Assembly (NCBI GenBank): GCA_029261135.1
Contig: JAJDBX010000062.1
Coordinates: 1-42,844 of the forward strand
DNA: 42,844 bases
Origin: Nitrospirota bacterium
Lineage (GTDB): Bacteria > Nitrospirota > Nitrospiria > SBBL01 > JAADHI01
Direction: 5' to 3'
The position numbers and the translations under genes are program-made. Within the stretch, counting starts at the first letter, position 1. Each line of letters starts with the position of its first letter. Positions 9,087 to 30,663 of this stretch are shown here, in pieces. The notes below the pieces were generated by a model. The model searched no databases. It saw nothing but the letters and a program-made list of their open reading frames with translations, and had not been told where the DNA came from.

Positions 9087-9287
9087 ATCCTCTCCTTATT
9101 TTTTTAAATGAATGCGTGTTCAGCGAGATTGTAATGCAAATCTCCACGATTGACTACCCTAGATTTTTAGGACATTTCCGAGGATTACTTTCATTCAAAT
9201 TTGGCGTAAAATGAAGGCTGGAGGGAGGATTCATTTCTTTAGTTGGATTTCAACAAAAGCCATATTTTATCGGCAAAGGAGGCAGTG

Positions 9288-9719
9288 ATGGAAGTCAAAA
9301 AAATATTGATGCCGACCGATTTTTCCGAGTTATCCGGCAAGACCATTCAAGAAACGCTTCCAATGGTCAAACAGTTAGAGGCAGAAGTCATATTCCTGCA
9401 TGTACTGGAGCGTTTGGATCACCCCGATGATATGACCGCTCTTTTTGATGAAGGTTATGCTTACTTAATGGATCGATCGAAAGCCTTGCTCAATGATCTG
9501 GTGGTTAAGGCCAAAGAAGAGGGAATCGAAGCAGAGGGAGAGCTGAAAAATGGTGTTCCCTATATTGAAATCGTCGGGCTTGCTGAAAAAATGGAGGTTG
9601 ATTTAATCGTGATGGGGACCCATGGCAGAAAAGGATTCAATCATCTGATGATGGGGAGCCAAGCCGAAAGAGTGATTCGTAATGCCCCTTGTTCCGTGAT
9701 GGCAATGAAAGGGAAATAG
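9288..9719 (+). CDS. Universal stress protein, UspA family
   Basis: A 143-residue single-domain Usp. The start is taken at 9288 because AAAGGAGG at 9275-9282 lies just before that ATG and the protein then begins MEVKKILMPTDFSE, the usual Usp N-terminus; an upstream in-frame ATG at 9243 would add 15 unmatched residues. The ATP-binding motif G-x2-G-x9-G-S is present near the C-terminus (GTHGRK ... MGS), so it belongs to the nucleotide-binding subclass. Usp proteins help cells cope with stress and energy limitation. Only 30 bases separate it from the porin-cytochrome downstream, so it likely belongs to the same transcript, hinting that this redox cluster is expressed under stress or energy-limiting conditions. 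Confidence 0.88.
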   Translation: MEVKKILMPTDFSELSGKTIQETLPMVKQLEAEVIFLHVLERLDHPDDMTALFDEGYAYLMDRSKALLNDLVVKAKEEGIEAEGELKNGVPYIEIVGLAEKMEVDLIVMGTHGRKGFNHLMMGSQAERVIRNAPCSVMAMKGK

Positions 9720-9749
9720 ATCTCGTATCTTTGAAAGGAGGCAAATAAA

Positions 9750-10940
9750 ATGACAAAAAAGTGCGCTTTGTTTATTATCGCCGCGCTGCTGCTTATTCCA
9801 TTGCTCGGCATCATATTTCCGAATCGTGCGGAAGCCATTCCGGCTTGGGCGAGAAAATATGATGCCGATTGCAGTCTTTGCCATTCCCCTGCCGTGCCAC
9901 GTCTCAATAAAACCGGACAGAAATTCCGTTGGAGGGGATTTCGTATGGCCGATGAGGTGGGGCAGGCGCAAGACATTTCAAAGGTTGGACATTTTATTTC
10001 TTTAAGAGGACGTGCCCGTGCTGAGTATCAGAACAATGAAACCGCAGAAGACTCGAACCAATTTGTATGGCACGACACGACACTCTTTTACGCCGGTGCA
10101 CTTAGCGAGTCCCTTTCTTCCTTTAGTGAAATTGAGGTAGAGGACGGAGAAATCAATATTGTAGCTCAAATTCAAGGGATTTCCGGTAAATCCGATCATT
10201 TCACCACCCTTAGGATTGGACAATTTCATTCCATGCAGGGAGCGGGGATTGGTGGTTTTGATCGGCCGACGGGTGTTAGCCGTGCGGAACCCCTGAATTC
10301 GAGAAGCTTGACAACAAGTGGCATTCCTTTTCGGATTAGGGAAAATCAAAAAGGGATTGAAGTGGCACATGTACGAGGCAATTCCCGAATCTTGGCGCAA
10401 GTTGTAAACGGATTAGGGGTGAATGGCAATTCCGGTGTCGCAGGGGATCAAGACCGTGATAAAGACTTTGTTCTGGCTTACGAGCGGATTCATGATGACA
10501 ATGCCTCTGGTTTTACGCTCTACGGTTACCGGGGGGTTTGGCACAATGGTGCGATTGGAGCCTTGGGCGAGGATTTTCGATTTTATCGTTATGGTGCACT
10601 TGGGAACAAAATCTTTGACAGCGGCACGGAAATTATTGGGGCTTATTTCCGAAGCGAGGACACTGTCCCGGAGAATGTTGGTCCGGATGTACAAGGAGAC
10701 AGTTTCTACGTCGAGTTTGAGCACTACCTCAAAGATCCCGACACCACGCTTTTGGCACGTTACGATTGGATTGATCCGGATGACAGCACAAAGGGGGATA
10801 CGCGCCACATAGAGACCATTGGCGTTGTTCATACCTATGAACGTCACTTGAGGCTCGGGATGGAAGGAAACAGTGCAACCGATAAGGGAACAAACAAGAC
10901 CAACTATGGGCTCGTCATCGAGGCGATGATTAACTTTTAG
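9750..10940 (+). CDS. Cyc2-like outer-membrane porin with one N-terminal c-type haem
   Basis: A 396-residue exported protein. Residues 1-29 are a signal peptide ending near AEA. A single CxxCH haem site follows (C41, C44, H45), set in an ARKYDADC...PRLNKTG...RWRGFR context. The rest alternates polar and hydrophobic residues with many aromatic and acidic positions, like a beta-barrel, and the protein ends in a terminal Phe (EAMINF), the usual signal for outer-membrane barrel insertion. A mono-haem head fused to a barrel of this size is the architecture of Cyc2, the outer-membrane Fe(II) oxidase of iron-oxidising bacteria. The same head also occurs in less well understood cytochrome-porins, so iron oxidation is an inference. 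A strong GAAAGGAGG Shine-Dalgarno precedes the ATG. Two cytochromes follow, as expected of an electron conduit. Confidence 0.65.
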   Translation: MTKKCALFIIAALLLIPLLGIIFPNRAEAIPAWARKYDADCSLCHSPAVPRLNKTGQKFRWRGFRMADEVGQAQDISKVGHFISLRGRARAEYQNNETAEDSNQFVWHDTTLFYAGALSESLSSFSEIEVEDGEINIVAQIQGISGKSDHFTTLRIGQFHSMQGAGIGGFDRPTGVSRAEPLNSRSLTTSGIPFRIRENQKGIEVAHVRGNSRILAQVVNGLGVNGNSGVAGDQDRDKDFVLAYERIHDDNASGFTLYGYRGVWHNGAIGALGEDFRFYRYGALGNKIFDSGTEIIGAYFRSEDTVPENVGPDVQGDSFYVEFEHYLKDPDTTLLARYDWIDPDDSTKGDTRHIETIGVVHTYERHLRLGMEGNSATDKGTNKTNYGLVIEAMINF

Positions 10941-10953
10941 TTGGACGGATACA

Positions 10954-10978
10954 GCCAAAGGAGGTGATCTCCTTTGGC
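10954..10978 (+). terminator. 10-bp hairpin between porin and cytochrome genes
   Basis: GCCAAAGGAG and CTCCTTTGGC form a perfect 10-bp stem around a GTGAT loop, 14 bases after the porin stop codon and 35 before the next gene. No T-tract follows, so it may be a partial terminator or an mRNA-stabilising hairpin. The left arm plus loop contains AAAGGAGGTGATC, a nearly full complement of the 16S rRNA 3' end. Confidence 0.5.
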
Positions 10979-11012
10979 CTTGGTATTTGTTGCGTGAAGT
11001 TGGAGGGAGATA

Positions 11013-11327
11013 ATGAAGGGAATTGTAACAACTGCACTTGTGATCTTTGGGATTGTTTTGATGGGACAATCTCCGCTTAATGCTTCTAATATTGAAGCAG
11101 GAAAGGCATTTTTCGGGAAAAAACGATGTGGGTTTTGCCACATGATCGAAGGGAAAGGCGGCAAAATGGCGATCGACCTATCAAAGCTCGGCAGTCAACG
11201 GGACAGAGAATGGTTGATGAAGTTTTTTGAAAACCCGAAAAAGGTCGCAAATGCGAAGATGCCTCCGGTGATGGGCAGTGCTGAGGAACTCTCTGCCCTG
11301 GCCGATTATCTTATGTCCCAAAAATAG
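11013..11327 (+). CDS. Small periplasmic mono-haem cytochrome c
   Basis: A 104-residue class I-type cytochrome c. Residues 1-24 form a signal peptide (cleavage near LNA-S). The haem site is C39-G-F-C42-H43, and the likely sixth ligand is M83 in the AKMPP context. The mature domain is about 80 residues, the size of a soluble electron shuttle. It lies directly behind the Cyc2-like porin and before a membrane-bound cytochrome, which places it logically between outer and inner membrane. The Shine-Dalgarno GGAGGGAG precedes the ATG at good spacing. Confidence 0.88.
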   Translation: MKGIVTTALVIFGIVLMGQSPLNASNIEAGKAFFGKKRCGFCHMIEGKGGKMAIDLSKLGSQRDREWLMKFFENPKKVANAKMPPVMGSAEELSALADYLMSQK

Positions 11328-11338
11328 GACATCCTCAT

Positions 11339-12079
11339 ATGGCATCACAAAACGGGCGAGGCATGAGTCTGAAAGATTTCCCCATTCCCTTAAAGGTACT
11401 CTTTACCTGCCTTTTGTTGACCCTCGGCATTGCTTATCTTTTTGCGGTGGCTTTTCTCTATCTCGTTGAGATTGAGCCGCATGCCGGCGATGATCATGGG
11501 CTGGTGGGTGCCGTTATTGAAAAATACTATGGCCGACGTGGAGAAACACGGCTGGGGGCCGCCCTCAAAGGTTCGATGGGCGATGCAGTCAATATCGTTG
11601 AAAAAGAAAAAATTTTTAAATGGATTGAAGGCGGCGCCTTAGAGAAAGATTTCGCGAATGTCGCATCCATTTTTCAAAATAGTTGCGCGCTTTGCCACAG
11701 CCCGGAAGGGGGGATGCCCGTCTCTCCGCTGACGACTTACCAAGAGGTCGTCGTCTATACAGCGATCGATATGGGACAATCGGTGAAAGCGCTTGTGGGT
11801 GTTTCTCATGTTCACCTCTTTGGCATGAGTTTTATCTTTTTTCTCACGGGTATCATCTTCGCCATGAGCGAAATTGATACGCGATGGCGCACCATTTTAA
11901 TTGTAACGCCCTTCGTTTCAATTTGGGTCGATATCGGATCCTGGTGGTTTACCAAGCTCAAACCGGTCTTTGCTTATACAGTGATTATCGGAGGGATCTT
12001 GATGGGGCTTTCCCTCCTCTTTCAGATTCTGATTTCACTTCTGGAAATGTGGGTTTGGAATAGAAGCGATCAGAAATAG
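11339..12079 (+). CDS. Membrane-anchored cytochrome c with four predicted TM helices
   Basis: A 246-residue inner-membrane protein. Hydrophobic segments lie at about 18-42, 155-177, 185-200 and 211-238. Between the first and second lies a periplasmic domain of about 110 residues with one haem site (C116, C119, H120). Just after it, the SHVHLFGMS segment (His157 and His159) at the edge of the second helix could bind a further haem or a metal; that is inference. The gene begins 11 bases after the small cytochrome, so the two are co-transcribed. A quinone- or terminal-oxidase-linked role at the inner membrane would complete an electron path with the porin and the shuttle. I do not recognise a named family. 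Confidence 0.72.
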   Translation: MASQNGRGMSLKDFPIPLKVLFTCLLLTLGIAYLFAVAFLYLVEIEPHAGDDHGLVGAVIEKYYGRRGETRLGAALKGSMGDAVNIVEKEKIFKWIEGGALEKDFANVASIFQNSCALCHSPEGGMPVSPLTTYQEVVVYTAIDMGQSVKALVGVSHVHLFGMSFIFFLTGIIFAMSEIDTRWRTILIVTPFVSIWVDIGSWWFTKLKPVFAYTVIIGGILMGLSLLFQILISLLEMWVWNRSDQK

Positions 12080-24557: not shown

Positions 24558-24866
24558 TTATAATTCACCCGACGATAAAATGTCTGTCACAAACCAGATC
24601 CCAATTCGGGTGTGTTCCTGTCCATCTGTTTTGAGTGCTTCAATAACACAATTTACATTGACATCGTCCAGAATAAGATCCAAGCGAACCCGAGGCACAT
24701 AACCGACCACCCTGTCTCGAACGCTTAGAAAAGTATCGTGCTGTGTTTTTGAGGAATGTCCTTCACAGGGAAGGAGGGTAAAGCCTTCGACTTCCTCTAT
24801 ATTTCTGAGCTTATCCGCCAGGTCACGCTTCGCGGATGCGGCCACGATCAGCGTCAAACATTTCAT
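24558..24866 (-). CDS. DUF3240 family protein
   Basis: A 102-residue soluble protein with an alternating beta/alpha pattern typical of the ferredoxin-like PII fold. Recognised as DUF3240 from its MKCLTLIV start and GFTLLPCEGHSS segment; such genes are regularly found beside CusA/CzcA pumps. It may act as a metal-dependent small regulator. The gene starts 44 bases inside the end of the CzcA-like gene, in another frame, so the two are tightly coupled. Confidence 0.72.
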   Translation of the reverse strand: MKCLTLIVAASAKRDLADKLRNIEEVEGFTLLPCEGHSSKTQHDTFLSVRDRVVGYVPRVRLDLILDDVNVNCVIEALKTDGQEHTRIGIWFVTDILSSGEL

Positions 24867-27800
24867 CGTGAGTGTCCTCCTTTTCCATAAGCACTTTCGT
24901 ATCCATTTTTTTTATCGTTCTTTTCTCTTCAAGCCAGGCGTAGAGTGTTGGGAGCAATATCAGGGTTAACAGCGTGGAGGTCAAAAGCCCTCCAATCACC
25001 ACGATTGCCAGAGGTTTTTGTAATTCAGAACCCGGTCCTCTTGCTAGCAGCAAAGGGATTAAGCCCAGACCGGTTGTAATCGCAGTCATGAGCACGGGAC
25101 GCAATCTTCGCTCCGCACCCTGAAGCACAGCCTGATGGAGGGGAAAGCCTTCTTCTCGAAGCTGATTAAAATAGCTGACCATCACAATCCCATTCATGAT
25201 CGCCATGCCAAAAAGGGCGATAAAGCCCACAGAAGCAGGCACTGAAAGGTAGAGTCCCGAAATAAAAAGGGCGACAATCCCGCCGATCATGGCGAAGGGA
25301 ATATTTAAAATGATGAGTCCTGCTTGCCGAATGGAATTGAAGGTTGTGAATAAAAAGAGAAAAATGAGCGCCACGGCGATGGGCAGGACAATCGCCAAGC
25401 GTTTTGCCGCACGCTGTTGATTTTCAAACTGGCCTCCAAATTCAACAAAAAATCCTGGCGGAAGGGTGATTTTATCATCAATGGCCGCCTGGATTTCATC
25501 CACAAAACCGACAATGTCCCGACCCTCAAGATTTGTTTGAATCACCACCTGCCTCAATACCCCTTCATGAATGACCTGAACCGGGCCATCCACGTCCACA
25601 ATATCCGCCAATATGTTGATCGGAACTTTGTCTCCTGTCGGGGTATCAATCAGAATATTGCCAATGGTCTCTGCGGAGTGCCGCATGTTTTCCGGATACC
25701 TTAGCAGCACGGGTGTACGTCGGAGACCCTCCATGACTTCAGTCACCAAGCTGCCACCGACAGCGGTGCTGACCAATGTATTGATGTCTTCGGTGTTAAT
25801 GCCAAAACGGCTCATCACTTCAGAGCGCATGCGCACTTCCAGGTAACGCTGGCCGGTGATGGGGGTTCGGAAAAGATCCACATTGCCGGGAATCGCCTCT
25901 ACAATGTCCTCAATCTGCTTTGCGGTTTCTTCAAGCAAAACAAGATCTTCACCATATAATTTCACGGCCAAGGCGGCCCGAACGCCGGTCAACATCTCGG
26001 AAACACGCATATCAATCGGCTGTGTGAAGGCATAAACGATCCCCGGAAATTGGTCGAGAATCTCCCGGAGTTTCACTTCAAGCTCGGCCGGGCCGTCCAC
26101 CGTCCATTCGGAGCGCGGCTTGGTCAGCAGGAAATTATCCGTCTGATAAAGCCCCATCGGATCTAAACGCAGTTCGTCTGAACCCATCCGTGCCGCCACG
26201 CCTTCCACTTCTGGCAGGGTCATTAAGGCCTTCTGAATATCGCCGTCTATTTCGAGGGAGCGTTCCAGCGATATACTGGGCAGTTTTTCAACAATCACGA
26301 CGGTCATCCCTTCATCTAATACAGGCATGAACTCCTTGCCGATAAAGGGATAGAGGGAGACCGAGCCAAACAAAAGCAGGATCGAGATCCCCACGGCCAG
26401 CTTTCGATTTTTAAGGGAAAAGGCGACCATGGGCCGATGAATGCGCTTTAGGTTTTCGATCAAGCGATTTTCTTTTGAGGGACCACCCCGCATCAAAAAA
26501 CTCGCCAGCACGGGGATGACCGTCAGGGCGACAAGCATCGAAATCGCGAGGGCCAGAGTGATTGTGAGGGCAAGCGGCGTGAATAACTTTCCCTCTAGAC
26601 CGCTCAAGCTAAGCAAAGGGAGAAAAACCACAATGATAATCAGCGTGCCAGAAACGACAGGCTGCGCCACTTCAAGCACCGCGCGGTAGATGATATGCAG
26701 CGGATCGACCCCTTTCACCCGGCGCGCAAGATGGGTCTGTATGTTTTCCACCACAACCACGGCAGGATCGACAAGCACCCCGATAGCAATCGCCAGTCCC
26801 CCCAAAGACATCAGGTTGGCCGAGACCCCCCCGAGATACATCGTGATAAAGGTGAATAAAATACTCAAGGGCAGAATTGCCGCCACCGTAATTGCCCCGC
26901 GCATGTAGCCCAGGAAAATAATGAGAACGATGACAACCAACACCAGGGCCGCACTCAGTGCTTCTGTGACCGTCCCGATCGCGGAATTGACGAGGTCGGT
27001 GCGGTCATAAAAAGGGACAATTTGCACACCAGGGGGCAGGCTTTTTTCGATTTCCCTGATCGCGTCTTTAATGCCCGCAACCGTTTTACTGGCATTGGCG
27101 CCCATCCGGTTGAGGATCAATCCTTCGACAAATTCCCCCTCTCCATTTTTTGTGACGCCACCATAGCGCGTCAGTGCCCCAATCGTGACACTGGCAAGGT
27201 CTTTGATATGGATCGGCTGGCCGTCCCGCGTTGCGACAGTGATATTTTGGATGTCCTCATCCGACTCAATCTGTCCCACCGTGCGAACCAGCAGCACTTC
27301 GTTATTTCTGACAACGCGATCACCCCCTGCGTTGCGGTTGTTGTTTTCTAAAGCCTTTTTCAGGTCGCCAATATTCAGGCCCATTGCCAAAAGAGCATCA
27401 GGGTCGGGTATCACGTGATAACTTCTCACCTCGCCGCCCAGCGCATTCACTTCGGCTACGCCGTCCACGGAAAGGAGTCGGGGACGGATCACCCAATCAA
27501 GTAGTCCACGGAGTTCGATATTGGAATATCCCTCGCCCTCTACCATGAACATATACGCTTCTCCGAGTGGGGTGGTAATCGGCGCAAGTCCGCCCTCTAC
27601 CCCACTGGGGAGGCTGTTCCAGACTTGATTGAGTCGTTCCGAGACTTGCTGCCGTGCCCAATAGATATCCGTCCCTTCTTCAAAATCGATCTTAATTGAA
27701 GAAAGTGCATACTTGGTCAGGGAGCGGATCACCGTTTGGCGCGGGATGCCATTGACCTCGACCTCTATCAGACGCGTAATCCGGCGCTCCACTTCGAGTG

Positions 27801-27972
27801 GCGCCATGCCGGGTGCTTTCACAATGACAAGCACTTGAGGGGATGAAACATCGGGAAAGGCGTCAATGGGCAGATTCGTAAAGGCCCAAGCCCCCAGGGC
27901 GGAAAGACCGACAGCCGATACCAGCACCATGAGCCGCTGCGTCAAAACAAAACGAATAAGATTGGCGATCAT
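24823..27972 (-). CDS. CzcA/CusA-family heavy-metal RND efflux pump
   Basis: A 1049-residue inner-membrane RND transporter of the heavy-metal efflux type. Two halves of six TM helices each and two large periplasmic loops are evident; the fourth-helix proton relay motif reads AIGVLVDPAVVVVEN with D402 and E409. The central segment GSDELRLDPMG resembles the DPMG found in CzcA-type pumps. It uses the proton gradient to expel metal through the adaptor and outer-membrane channel encoded upstream. The exact ion (Co, Ni, Zn or Cu/Ag) is not settled by these motifs; the HupE and His-rich neighbours favour Co/Ni/Zn over Cu/Ag, an inference only. It overlaps the adaptor gene by 4 bases. Confidence 0.93.
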   Translation of the reverse strand: MIANLIRFVLTQRLMVLVSAVGLSALGAWAFTNLPIDAFPDVSSPQVLVIVKAPGMAPLEVERRITRLIEVEVNGIPRQTVIRSLTKYALSSIKIDFEEGTDIYWARQQVSERLNQVWNSLPSGVEGGLAPITTPLGEAYMFMVEGEGYSNIELRGLLDWVIRPRLLSVDGVAEVNALGGEVRSYHVIPDPDALLAMGLNIGDLKKALENNNRNAGGDRVVRNNEVLLVRTVGQIESDEDIQNITVATRDGQPIHIKDLASVTIGALTRYGGVTKNGEGEFVEGLILNRMGANASKTVAGIKDAIREIEKSLPPGVQIVPFYDRTDLVNSAIGTVTEALSAALVLVVIVLIIFLGYMRGAITVAAILPLSILFTFITMYLGGVSANLMSLGGLAIAIGVLVDPAVVVVENIQTHLARRVKGVDPLHIIYRAVLEVAQPVVSGTLIIIVVFLPLLSLSGLEGKLFTPLALTITLALAISMLVALTVIPVLASFLMRGGPSKENRLIENLKRIHRPMVAFSLKNRKLAVGISILLLFGSVSLYPFIGKEFMPVLDEGMTVVIVEKLPSISLERSLEIDGDIQKALMTLPEVEGVAARMGSDELRLDPMGLYQTDNFLLTKPRSEWTVDGPAELEVKLREILDQFPGIVYAFTQPIDMRVSEMLTGVRAALAVKLYGEDLVLLEETAKQIEDIVEAIPGNVDLFRTPITGQRYLEVRMRSEVMSRFGINTEDINTLVSTAVGGSLVTEVMEGLRRTPVLLRYPENMRHSAETIGNILIDTPTGDKVPINILADIVDVDGPVQVIHEGVLRQVVIQTNLEGRDIVGFVDEIQAAIDDKITLPPGFFVEFGGQFENQQRAAKRLAIVLPIAVALIFLFLFTTFNSIRQAGLIILNIPFAMIGGIVALFISGLYLSVPASVGFIALFGMAIMNGIVMVSYFNQLREEGFPLHQAVLQGAERRLRPVLMTAITTGLGLIPLLLARGPGSELQKPLAIVVIGGLLTSTLLTLILLPTLYAWLEEKRTIKKMDTKVLMEKEDTHDEMFDADRGRIREA

Positions 27973-29171
27973 TTTAATTCACCTCCCCTGTTCAACCATT
28001 CGGCCTTGATTGCAAAGCTATTTTGGGTCACGACCTGCTCTCCACCGGAAAGTCCTTCTAAAATCTCCACCATGCGCCCGTCCGAAATACCCAGTTTTAC
28101 AGGCCGTACTTCAAAATTTTTTCCGATTTGAACAAAAAGGGCATTGCGATCTCCGATCACTTGTATCGCCTCCATGGAGACGGCGACAGGGGGTGAGACA
28201 TTTTCTTGCAGCAGATTCACCGAGACAAAAAGTCCGGGTCGCCATTTACCCTCCGGATTTTGAAGAAGTACGCGAACCATGCCCATTTGTGTCTTTTCGT
28301 CGAAGCGTGATCCAATATAAATTACTTCTCCCAGTCCTATCAGACGGGCATTTTTTGATGTGACTTTTGTCTTTTGACCTACCTTGAGCAAGTTCAAGTC
28401 TTTAGCCAGAACCTTGGCATCGACCCAGACCGCGCTCATATCGGCAAGTACGAAAAGTTTAGTCTGTTCATCCACGGCCTGGCCAAGCATGACATTTTTT
28501 TCTATTACAAGCCCATCCACTGCGGCGCGCACCTCGTAACGTGTCAGGGACTGACCGGAAACGATGAACCATTTTTTTCCGCCTTTCGGTGCCACCACAA
28601 GTTTAGAAAGTGCAGCTGCGTCTAGCCCCAGAGCGCGTAGCTTTTGCCCTGTCAAATGTTTGCCCAATTCTGCTTCTTGCAGGGCGCGGCCACTGGCGAG
28701 GTAATCTTCTTTTGCAGAAATCTTCTGTTTTGAAAGTGCTTCTTCTCTGGCAAAAGAAATCCGGGCGAATTCAAGCCGATTCACGGCCTCGATATAGTCA
28801 CTTTTGGCATTGGCCAGCTCGCGACTTTCGATGACTGCAATGACTTCATCTTTTTTGACGGCATCCCCTAAATCTTTGCGGACCTCCGTTACCACACCGG
28901 AAAGCCTGGGGACGACCTGTGCGGCCCTACCCGTATTCAGCTTGACCTGACCTTGAAATGTCATCGCCGTTTTGATTTGAACCGAGCCCGCAGTTTCGAG
29001 CGTGATTTGAGCATTTTTAATGACTTCGTCTGTGAGTGTGATCGCAAGAAGAGACGAAGCATTCGCGCTCGGCTCAGCGCTTTTGACTAGATTGGCGATC
29101 CCAAGTGTGAGAAGGAGCAGCGTTAATGGACCAAACAGCATCTTTAAAATCATCTCTGGAAAATTTTTCAT
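27969..29171 (-). CDS. RND periplasmic adaptor protein (CzcB/CusB type)
   Basis: A 400-residue membrane-fusion protein. It starts with a hydrophobic segment (residues 8-30, signal or anchor), then barrel-sandwich halves (VVPRLSGVVTEVRKDLGDAVKKDEVIAVIES) around a helical hairpin (about 120-190), and the C-terminal barrel with PVAVSMEAIQVIGDRNALFV. It bridges the CzcA-like pump and the TolC-like channel in the periplasm. Both flanks overlap by 4 bases with neighbouring genes. I see no N-terminal His/Met metal-binding cluster. Confidence 0.9.
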   Translation of the reverse strand: MKNFPEMILKMLFGPLTLLLLTLGIANLVKSAEPSANASSLLAITLTDEVIKNAQITLETAGSVQIKTAMTFQGQVKLNTGRAAQVVPRLSGVVTEVRKDLGDAVKKDEVIAVIESRELANAKSDYIEAVNRLEFARISFAREEALSKQKISAKEDYLASGRALQEAELGKHLTGQKLRALGLDAAALSKLVVAPKGGKKWFIVSGQSLTRYEVRAAVDGLVIEKNVMLGQAVDEQTKLFVLADMSAVWVDAKVLAKDLNLLKVGQKTKVTSKNARLIGLGEVIYIGSRFDEKTQMGMVRVLLQNPEGKWRPGLFVSVNLLQENVSPPVAVSMEAIQVIGDRNALFVQIGKNFEVRPVKLGISDGRMVEILEGLSGGEQVVTQNSFAIKAEWLNRGGELK

Positions 29172-30571
29172 TGAGTACTCTCCTTCTTTTCATCCGTGAT
29201 CTTTTTGTCAGCATTTGTCGGCTCAGGCGAAATCGATTCCCCAATGATGCGTTCCAAATCGGCAAGGGACAGATGATAATTTGTTAGCGCCTCCAAGTAT
29301 TGTCCTTTTGCCTCAGAAATCGTGCGCTGCGCATCTAGAACATCAATCAAGCTGAATTTCCCTAATCGATAACCTGTGCTCACCGCTTCAAAAGTCTCTT
29401 GCGCGCCGGGCAGCACGTTTTGATTGAGCGCAGCAAGCTCGGCGGAAGCCGTCGTCAGCGCGTTGTAGGCATCTGTTAGCGCAGTATTAACTCTGACTTC
29501 TGCCGCACGTTGTGCTTCTTTCGCTTCTTCAAATTCATGACGTGCTTCCAGCACTGCCCCTTGATTTCGATTTATCAAAGGCAGCGGGAAAGAGAGACCC
29601 AGGACAAACGCATGATCATCCGGTCCGCTTAAACTCCGGAGTCCACCACTGATTGTGAGATCTGGAATGGCTTGACTCTTTTCGACTGCGATGACCGCTT
29701 GACGATTTGAAACCTCGACGGCCCAGCGGGCCAATTCCGGGTTTTGTGCTAAGCGTTGTAGCAATTTTTCTTGTGATGGAATTTTAGAGATGGACGCGAG
29801 ACTGCCCACAACCCGCTCAAAACGAGGATCGCGACTTCCCCATGTTGCGGCCAGATGGTTACGGGCAACAGTCAAGGCCCGTTTGGCGCGCTCAAATTTA
29901 ATTTCGATGGAGGCCAAGGCGACCTTGACTTTGGTTTCTTCAACCGGGGAGGCTTTGCCCGCTTTCACCCTGGCCGAAACGGTTTCGACAACTTGAGTTC
30001 CGATGCCTAAAACATCTTCAATTAAGTGCAGGGCTTCTTGCGCGCTTAAAACAGCAGTAAAGGCCTTGGAAACCTGTGTGAGCACTTCCATCCGCTTGAT
30101 TTCATAATCCCAGCCGCTCAGATCGTGTTGAGCTATCGCGGCTCGGGTTCTTGTCTTTCGTTTTGCGCCAAGCTCAAGCACCTGGCTCAAAGATATGGTT
30201 GTTTCCGCTTGGTCTGTACCACTAAAGGCACCTGCTCCTGCGACATTTTCGATGTCGATTCCGATTTCCGGATTAGGTCTTAAGCGGGCTTGCAGCGTGG
30301 CGGCCTCACGGGCACGTATCGCCCATGAAAAAGCTTTCAGTTCTGGATTATTAAGAAGTGCTAAAGCGACCGCCTTTTTTAAGGTCATCTCTCCTATGGC
30401 TTCTTCCGAGATTTCTTTTACTGAGGGAGGTGCTTCCGACATCGTTTCTGGTGGGGAAGGTGAACGGAAGGTCGGGATATTATGAAGCTCAATATTTTCA
30501 TTCTGACTGGCGCACCCGAAAAGTCCTGTTACCAGAACAATACTGATAACAATTAGGGGATTAAAACGCAT
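29168..30571 (-). CDS. TolC-family outer-membrane channel (CzcC type)
   Basis: A 467-residue outer-membrane efflux protein. The start at 30571 has GGAGG six bases upstream; it then opens with a lipoprotein-type signal (LVTGLFGCAS, lipobox Cys at about residue 20). Two repeated helical TolC halves follow, with the characteristic GxxGxNPEL and LKAFSWAIRAREA and, later, the LDAQRTISEAKGQYLEAL segment. It forms the outer channel of the tripartite pump. It is the first pump gene on the transcript and overlaps the adaptor by 4 bases. Confidence 0.9.
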   Translation of the reverse strand: MRFNPLIVISIVLVTGLFGCASQNENIELHNIPTFRSPSPPETMSEAPPSVKEISEEAIGEMTLKKAVALALLNNPELKAFSWAIRAREAATLQARLRPNPEIGIDIENVAGAGAFSGTDQAETTISLSQVLELGAKRKTRTRAAIAQHDLSGWDYEIKRMEVLTQVSKAFTAVLSAQEALHLIEDVLGIGTQVVETVSARVKAGKASPVEETKVKVALASIEIKFERAKRALTVARNHLAATWGSRDPRFERVVGSLASISKIPSQEKLLQRLAQNPELARWAVEVSNRQAVIAVEKSQAIPDLTISGGLRSLSGPDDHAFVLGLSFPLPLINRNQGAVLEARHEFEEAKEAQRAAEVRVNTALTDAYNALTTASAELAALNQNVLPGAQETFEAVSTGYRLGKFSLIDVLDAQRTISEAKGQYLEALTNYHLSLADLERIIGESISPEPTNADKKITDEKKESTQ

Positions 30572-30663
30572 ACAATTCCTCCGTAACATTACGAAAAAAA
30601 CACCCCTTTTAATAAAAAAAGGAGGAATTTCCTAACGATTAAATATACTTAGGCCTTGGAAAC

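Follow-up and report, generated by a model that had tools for sequence, protein, structure and literature searches.

A Cyc2-like cytochrome-porin and an unnamed membrane cytochrome in one operon of a Nitrospirota bacterium: a candidate electron path across the cell envelope

How might electrons from an extracellular donor be carried across the cell envelope to the inner membrane in relatives of the manganese-oxidising Nitrospirota? This question is raised by three cytochrome genes on the + strand of a 42,844-nucleotide contig (JAJDBX010000062.1, Nitrospirota assembly GCA_029261135.1), the whole of which is referred to here as the window. They encode a Cyc2-like fused monohaem cytochrome-porin of 396 amino acids (aa) (CYCP, 9750–10940), a periplasmic class I monohaem cytochrome c of 104 aa (CYTC, 11013–11327) and a membrane monohaem cytochrome of 246 aa with about four transmembrane (TM) helices (MCYT, 11339–12079). 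An earlier reading of the sequence (the original prediction) had placed these genes on one strand with short gaps, which are 72 and 11 bp. It had given their range as 9288–12079; the three genes are as stated, but the first gene of that range is a universal stress protein (USP), 30 bp upstream of CYCP on the same strand. We consider it fairly probable that the products of the operon form an electron path in which CYCP, CYTC and MCYT link an extracellular donor to a bc complex or the quinone pool.

The N-terminal region of CYCP resembles that of Cyc2. A predicted signal peptide (residues 1–29, 9750–9836, +), with a hydropathy peak at residues 5–23, ends in AEA, a cleavage site placed from the sequence. 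It is followed by the only CxxCH of the protein (C41-S-L-C44-H45), at the residues originally given, and the C-terminal residue is Phe, as had also been noted. The Cyc2 signature consists of AXPXFAR[Q/K][T/Y] ahead of CxxCH and PXL four residues past it (PMC8406198). The cytochrome head of CYCP (9834–9905, +) has the same spacing, with AIPAWARKY, CSLCH (9870–9884) and PRL, the last in the context CH-SPAV-PRL. The first element fits the signature everywhere except for Trp at the Phe position, and the exact motif with Phe is present in two members of the CYCP clade (L044 and L047). Residues P31, R35–Y37, C41, C44, H45, P50 and L52 are invariant in 8/8 clade members, so that the haem, whose conservation had been proposed as a check, is found throughout.

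Two more Cyc2-like proteins, both with the exact motif, are encoded in the same genome (G000:C40, C73). Profiles were compared among the Nitrospirota Cyc2-like paralogues, and biochemically tested Cyc2 proteins were compared through the published signature alone. The alignment of CYCP with the exact-motif paralogue group spans 348 columns (E about 1e-27, probability 99.8), and that of CYCP with a third Cyc2-like group 346 columns. In a tree of 42 Cyc2-like proteins, the CYCP group forms one side of a branch with support 100/100. No Pfam or NCBIfam match was found for CYCP. Run against PDB sequences, the profiles of CYCP and of two other Cyc2-like groups gave chance matches or nothing, and plasmid records gave no match to CYCP.

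The AlphaFold model of CYCP, from three input sequences, is strand-rich, with about 17 strands, and has a mean predicted local distance difference test (pLDDT) score of only 36.7. All 50 listed PDB matches of this low-confidence model are outer-membrane proteins. The top match is Neisseria PorB (E=1.5e-6), also the reported structural neighbour of Leptospirillum Cyc572 (PMC10654088). The structure prediction suggested originally, with 16 strands expected, gave about 17 and porin-type matches, at low confidence. A barrel is likely on this model, and the haem domain may act as its plug.

The Cyc2-like assignment stands on the head signature with one conservative substitution, the full-length homology to the exact-motif paralogues and the barrel-type matches. 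CYCP shares with Cyc2/Cyt572 the signal peptide, the single CxxCH in signature context with PXL, a predicted barrel body and an aromatic C-terminus. It differs from them in the Trp for the motif Phe, in its length of 396 aa, near the FeGenie minimum of 365 aa for Cyc2, and in a clade separate from the exact-motif paralogues. Judged from its sequence, CYCP is a divergent Cyc2-like protein: the kind is known, the clade new and its own. In three other genomes, CYCP is followed by a probable lipoprotein of ~288 aa (L131 9433–10299, with a SHOCT-like C-terminus; L090 6937–7800; L008 949–1818).

CYTC contains one haem site, CGFCH (11127–11141, +), and is assigned to class I cytochrome c by its Pfam match (PF00034, E=4.8e-9; Cytochrom_C profile 37.9 bits, cut-off 21.3). 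A CYTC-type cytochrome adjoins CYCP in five genomes. CYTC would occupy the same slot in the proposed path as the MtoD/Cyc1-type periplasmic monohaem cytochromes; in contrast to these, its gene is linked to MCYT and a cytochrome b/c protein, not to CymA/MtoC.

The third protein, MCYT, has the single haem, the four helices and the SHVHLFGMS segment (residues 156–164) of the original description. Its AlphaFold model, from seven sequences (mean pLDDT 69), has long helices at residues 16–48, 134–175, 181–204 and 208–238, of which a plain hydropathy scan shows only three clearly. The haem c site, CALCH (residues 116–120, 11684–11698, +), is located between helix 1 and helix 2 and is therefore periplasmic. 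An HVH motif (H157 and H159, 11807–11815, +) lies at the start of TM2, and D198 (11930–11932, +) in TM3. The residues invariant across 30 long rows of the family alignment, which include one genome entered twice, are C116, C119, H120, H157, H159, D198, W202 and G219; H48 is retained in most close relatives, not all. The HVH motif and D198 are also invariant in four short paralogues that have no haem c site. From the topology of the model, H157, H159 and D198 would face the periplasmic side of the membrane, and the HxH motif and Asp probably form a second site, for haem b, a metal or a quinone. Both CYCP and MCYT are real genes, as they have orthologues with 66 and 64% identity for CYCP and up to 72% for MCYT.

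Paralogues of ~170 aa that correspond to the membrane part of MCYT, lack its haem site and keep the HxH motif and Asp were observed at L094 7917–8435, L095 7664–8182 and L097 7922–8434, and such short forms are widespread in other Nitrospirota. The MCYT gene of Candidatus (Ca.) Manganitrophus GAC4 (L010 8001–8707) is frameshifted near residue 90 as deposited, possibly a sequencing error.

No named family was found for MCYT by sequence (Pfam, NCBIfam and PDB), with only sub-threshold matches to the haem site, and its profile finds nothing above chance among PDB sequences. The fold search gave no Foldseek match with E<0.8, and the VIA Z scores (<=6.6) are of the size that common helical bundles give. 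The matches to rhodopsin, GPCR, pMMO subunit C and COX3 folds are generic helical-bundle ones near background, and these assignments were rejected. A likeness of the HxH-Asp core to the PmoC copper site was considered and dropped, as support was lacking. A protein of this description was not recognised in the open-access literature searched, where an earlier account may have been missed.

The inner-membrane cytochromes known so far in extracellular electron transfer (EET) are multihaem and serve both electron directions (PMC6295460). MCYT resembles them as an inner-membrane cytochrome whose gene adjoins outer-membrane conduits, and differs in its single haem c and in its HxH/Asp core within about four TM helices. 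CymA and NapC-NrfH proteins have four haem c and one TM helix, whereas MCYT has one CxxCH and four long helices. CbcL/MtoC/MtrH or ImcH are long proteins with several haem c, unlike MCYT with its one CxxCH in 246 aa. The inner-membrane proteins of the porin-cytochrome clusters PCC3 and PCC4 are, like MCYT, unannotated partners of an outer-membrane system; they have five TM helices and two HX13H pairs, read by their authors as haem b sites (PMC5566968). In comparison, MCYT has four helices, one CxxCH and no His residues 14 apart, hence no HX13H pair.

The source genome is a Nitrospirota metagenome-assembled genome (MAG) of 3.2 Mb, 95% complete. Close relatives of MCYT are in the Nitrospirota MAGs OFTM211, OFTM244 and OFTM308, the Ca. 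Manganitrophaceae MAG GW715 and Ca. Manganitrophus GAC4. Oslofjord-tunnel MAGs assigned to the Nitrospirota order SBBL01 have been described as Manganitrophus-like, presumed Mn oxidisers (PMC11442690), and from their isolate names the OFTM genomes would be these MAGs. The source genome is that of a marine relative of manganese-oxidising Nitrospirota, near these tunnel MAGs and Ca. Manganitrophaceae. For the sister genus, Ca. Manganitrophus, PCC_1 and Cyc2 are candidates for the Mn(II) route (PMC9040806), as the CYCP operon may be here. A search of two Ca. Manganitrophaceae genomes with CYCP gave no orthologue, and the best match (E about 1e-13) covers the head region only; other Cyc2-like proteins are present in both.

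The gene neighbourhoods show a constant pair, CYTC-MCYT (L004, L005, L006, L011 and L149), for which CYCP is an exchangeable front end. The original suggestion that the three genes might stay together in relatives holds for OFTM244, the only relative with all three in one block, but not for several close relatives, which keep only CYTC-MCYT. The nine-gene cluster of OFTM244 (L005 1–10637, the same region as L156) runs on one strand in the order MtrC/OmcA-type, MtrA-type, MtrB, USP, CYCP, CYTC, MCYT, Rieske and a cytochrome b-cytochrome c fusion, and so unites two different outer-membrane conduits. Another genome (G297) has CYCP-CYTC and CYTC-MCYT on two separate contigs, and in G296 CYTC is in the matching response-regulator flank without CYCP. 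In GW715 and GAC4 (L007 and L010), a decahaem cytochrome and an MtrB/PioB porin (PF11854, E=4.7e-119) stand, in this order, between CYTC and MCYT. MCYT is beside different Cyc2-like proteins in further Nitrospirota genomes, namely G261, G277 and G117 (with another monohaem cytochrome in between) and G008. The order in G289 is CYCP, a 289-aa protein and MCYT. A distant MCYT relative adjoins an 11-haem protein of the NapC type (L081). In L118 (1423–8572), from a genome found outside the search of the source phylum, an ACIII-type (alternative-complex-III-like) cluster is directly preceded by a distant MCYT and a dihaem cytochrome.

This association exceeds what chance would give. A Cyc2-like gene lies within <=3 kb of MCYT in 7 of the 18 Nitrospirota genomes with a full MCYT. 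A generous four Cyc2-like genes per 3.3 Mb would give 0.75% per genome by chance, and hence p about 4e-11 for 7/18 if the genomes were independent, which they are not. The Cyc2-like partners fall into three separate Cyc2-like clades, the Cyc2-neighbour label has to change three times or more along the MCYT tree, and three independent association events have p about 3e-4 by chance. MtrAB in the CYTC-MCYT slot is a further, unrelated case of association with a conduit. The original view that MCYT matches no named oxidoreductase and could be a new inner-membrane partner is in keeping with its recurrence beside unrelated outer-membrane conduits.

In the proposed path, CYCP would form an outer-membrane barrel of the 16-strand type, with its one-haem head on the periplasmic side, and would accept electrons from a soluble extracellular donor, most likely Fe(II) or Mn(II). 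CYTC would ferry these electrons through the periplasm to MCYT, which would sit in the inner membrane and receive them at a haem c on the periplasmic face. From MCYT they would go to a cytochrome bc complex or the quinone pool, as reverse transport that serves CO2 fixation, or else to a terminal oxidase. In known iron oxidisers, Cyc2 hands electrons to periplasmic carriers, from which they reach an oxidase as well as, in the uphill direction, the bc1 complex (PMC5566968, PMC10654088). The Rieske and cytochrome b genes adjoining MCYT in OFTM244 fit with a relay to a bc complex. The direction and the donor are suggested by kinship and by analogy with tested Cyc2 proteins; the hedged wording of the original prediction, iron or another donor, holds for this putative donor.

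Several observations weigh against such a path. The model of CYCP is poor, and its alternating-hydrophobicity (amphipathicity) score, z=1.8, is equalled by a soluble control, also 1.8, for which reason this test was dropped as evidence for a barrel. CYCP is missing from several of the closest relatives, which keep CYTC-MCYT (L004, L006, L011 and L149; in the first three the order is USP, CYTC, MCYT), and it is therefore not essential to the CYTC-MCYT module. MCYT has no nearby outer-membrane conduit in G060, G119 and the distant G331, G369 and G405, and further distant relatives (L071, L073 and L119–L121) have no conduit-type neighbour. Neither an MtrA-type gene nor a cytochrome b/c gene of the OFTM244 type was found in the source genome, which has a shorter cytochrome b (C42), and the absence of the b/c gene makes the onward partner of MCYT here uncertain.

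The pairs without CYCP, and the MCYT genes of some genomes without any EET neighbour, would also suit a module of general respiratory use, feeding for instance into a bc complex or oxidase from the side, with CYCP loosely associated, exchangeable and serving another role. We regard this as unlikely, as three Cyc2-like lineages and MtrAB have been placed separately beside MCYT, different conduits in the same slot. Equally unlikely in our judgement is the reverse direction, in which MCYT, CYTC and CYCP would export electrons and Fe(III), Mn(IV) or another acceptor outside the cell would take them up. The OFTM244 cluster does contain MtrCAB-type genes, known from metal reducers, and inner-membrane EET cytochromes operate both ways (PMC6295460), but an aerobic, autotrophic life by Mn(II) oxidation has been proposed for the relatives (PMC9040806, PMC11442690) and the Cyc2 proteins tested so far oxidise Fe(II) (PMC8406198). 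A solute porin whose haem is purely structural, with no part in redox chemistry, is a further reading of CYCP that its solute-porin barrel matches and the putative status of donor activity in its clade would allow; it is very improbable given a haem and head invariant across the clade and the CYTC-type cytochrome beside CYCP in five genomes.

The operon begins with USP (9288–9719, +; PF00582, E=1.6e-28), whose start is the ATG at 9288, internal to a longer open reading frame beginning at 9243; USP holds this upstream position in L004, L005, L006 and L011. A strong hairpin without a proper T-run lies between CYCP and CYTC (10954–10978, +; fold z=-2.85). Hairpins of different sequence are found at the equivalent position in L005 and L086, and no notable hairpin at that place in the two relatives without CYCP that were tested. 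The shared position in L005 and L086 suggests a conserved processing or partial-termination element, and from the sequences these hairpins may stop some transcripts early or shield the CYCP mRNA, giving more CYCP than CYTC. Elsewhere in the window, an efflux cluster of CzcA/CusA-, CzcB- and CzcC-type genes (24823–30589) was recognised from translations alone, and a fragment of a group II intron RNA family (34.1 bits, cut-off 34) is truncated by the window edge at 1–89.

The new part of this operon is MCYT, a family without a name in the databases searched. It is nearly as likely as not that MCYT founds an inner-membrane electron-entry family which in Nitrospirota serves outer-membrane conduits that can replace one another, MtrAB as well as three Cyc2-like lineages, with the HxH-Asp core as a new cofactor or quinone site. 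For Mn(II)- and Fe(II)-oxidising Nitrospirota, candidates in the outer membrane (Cyc2 and PCC) have been named, and MCYT is a concrete candidate for the hand-over at the inner membrane. If this is true, the family would supply, for the proposed Mn(II)/Fe(II) oxidisers, the missing step by which electrons from the outer membrane reach the bc complex or the quinone pool, and MCYT may serve as a genomic marker for such pathways.

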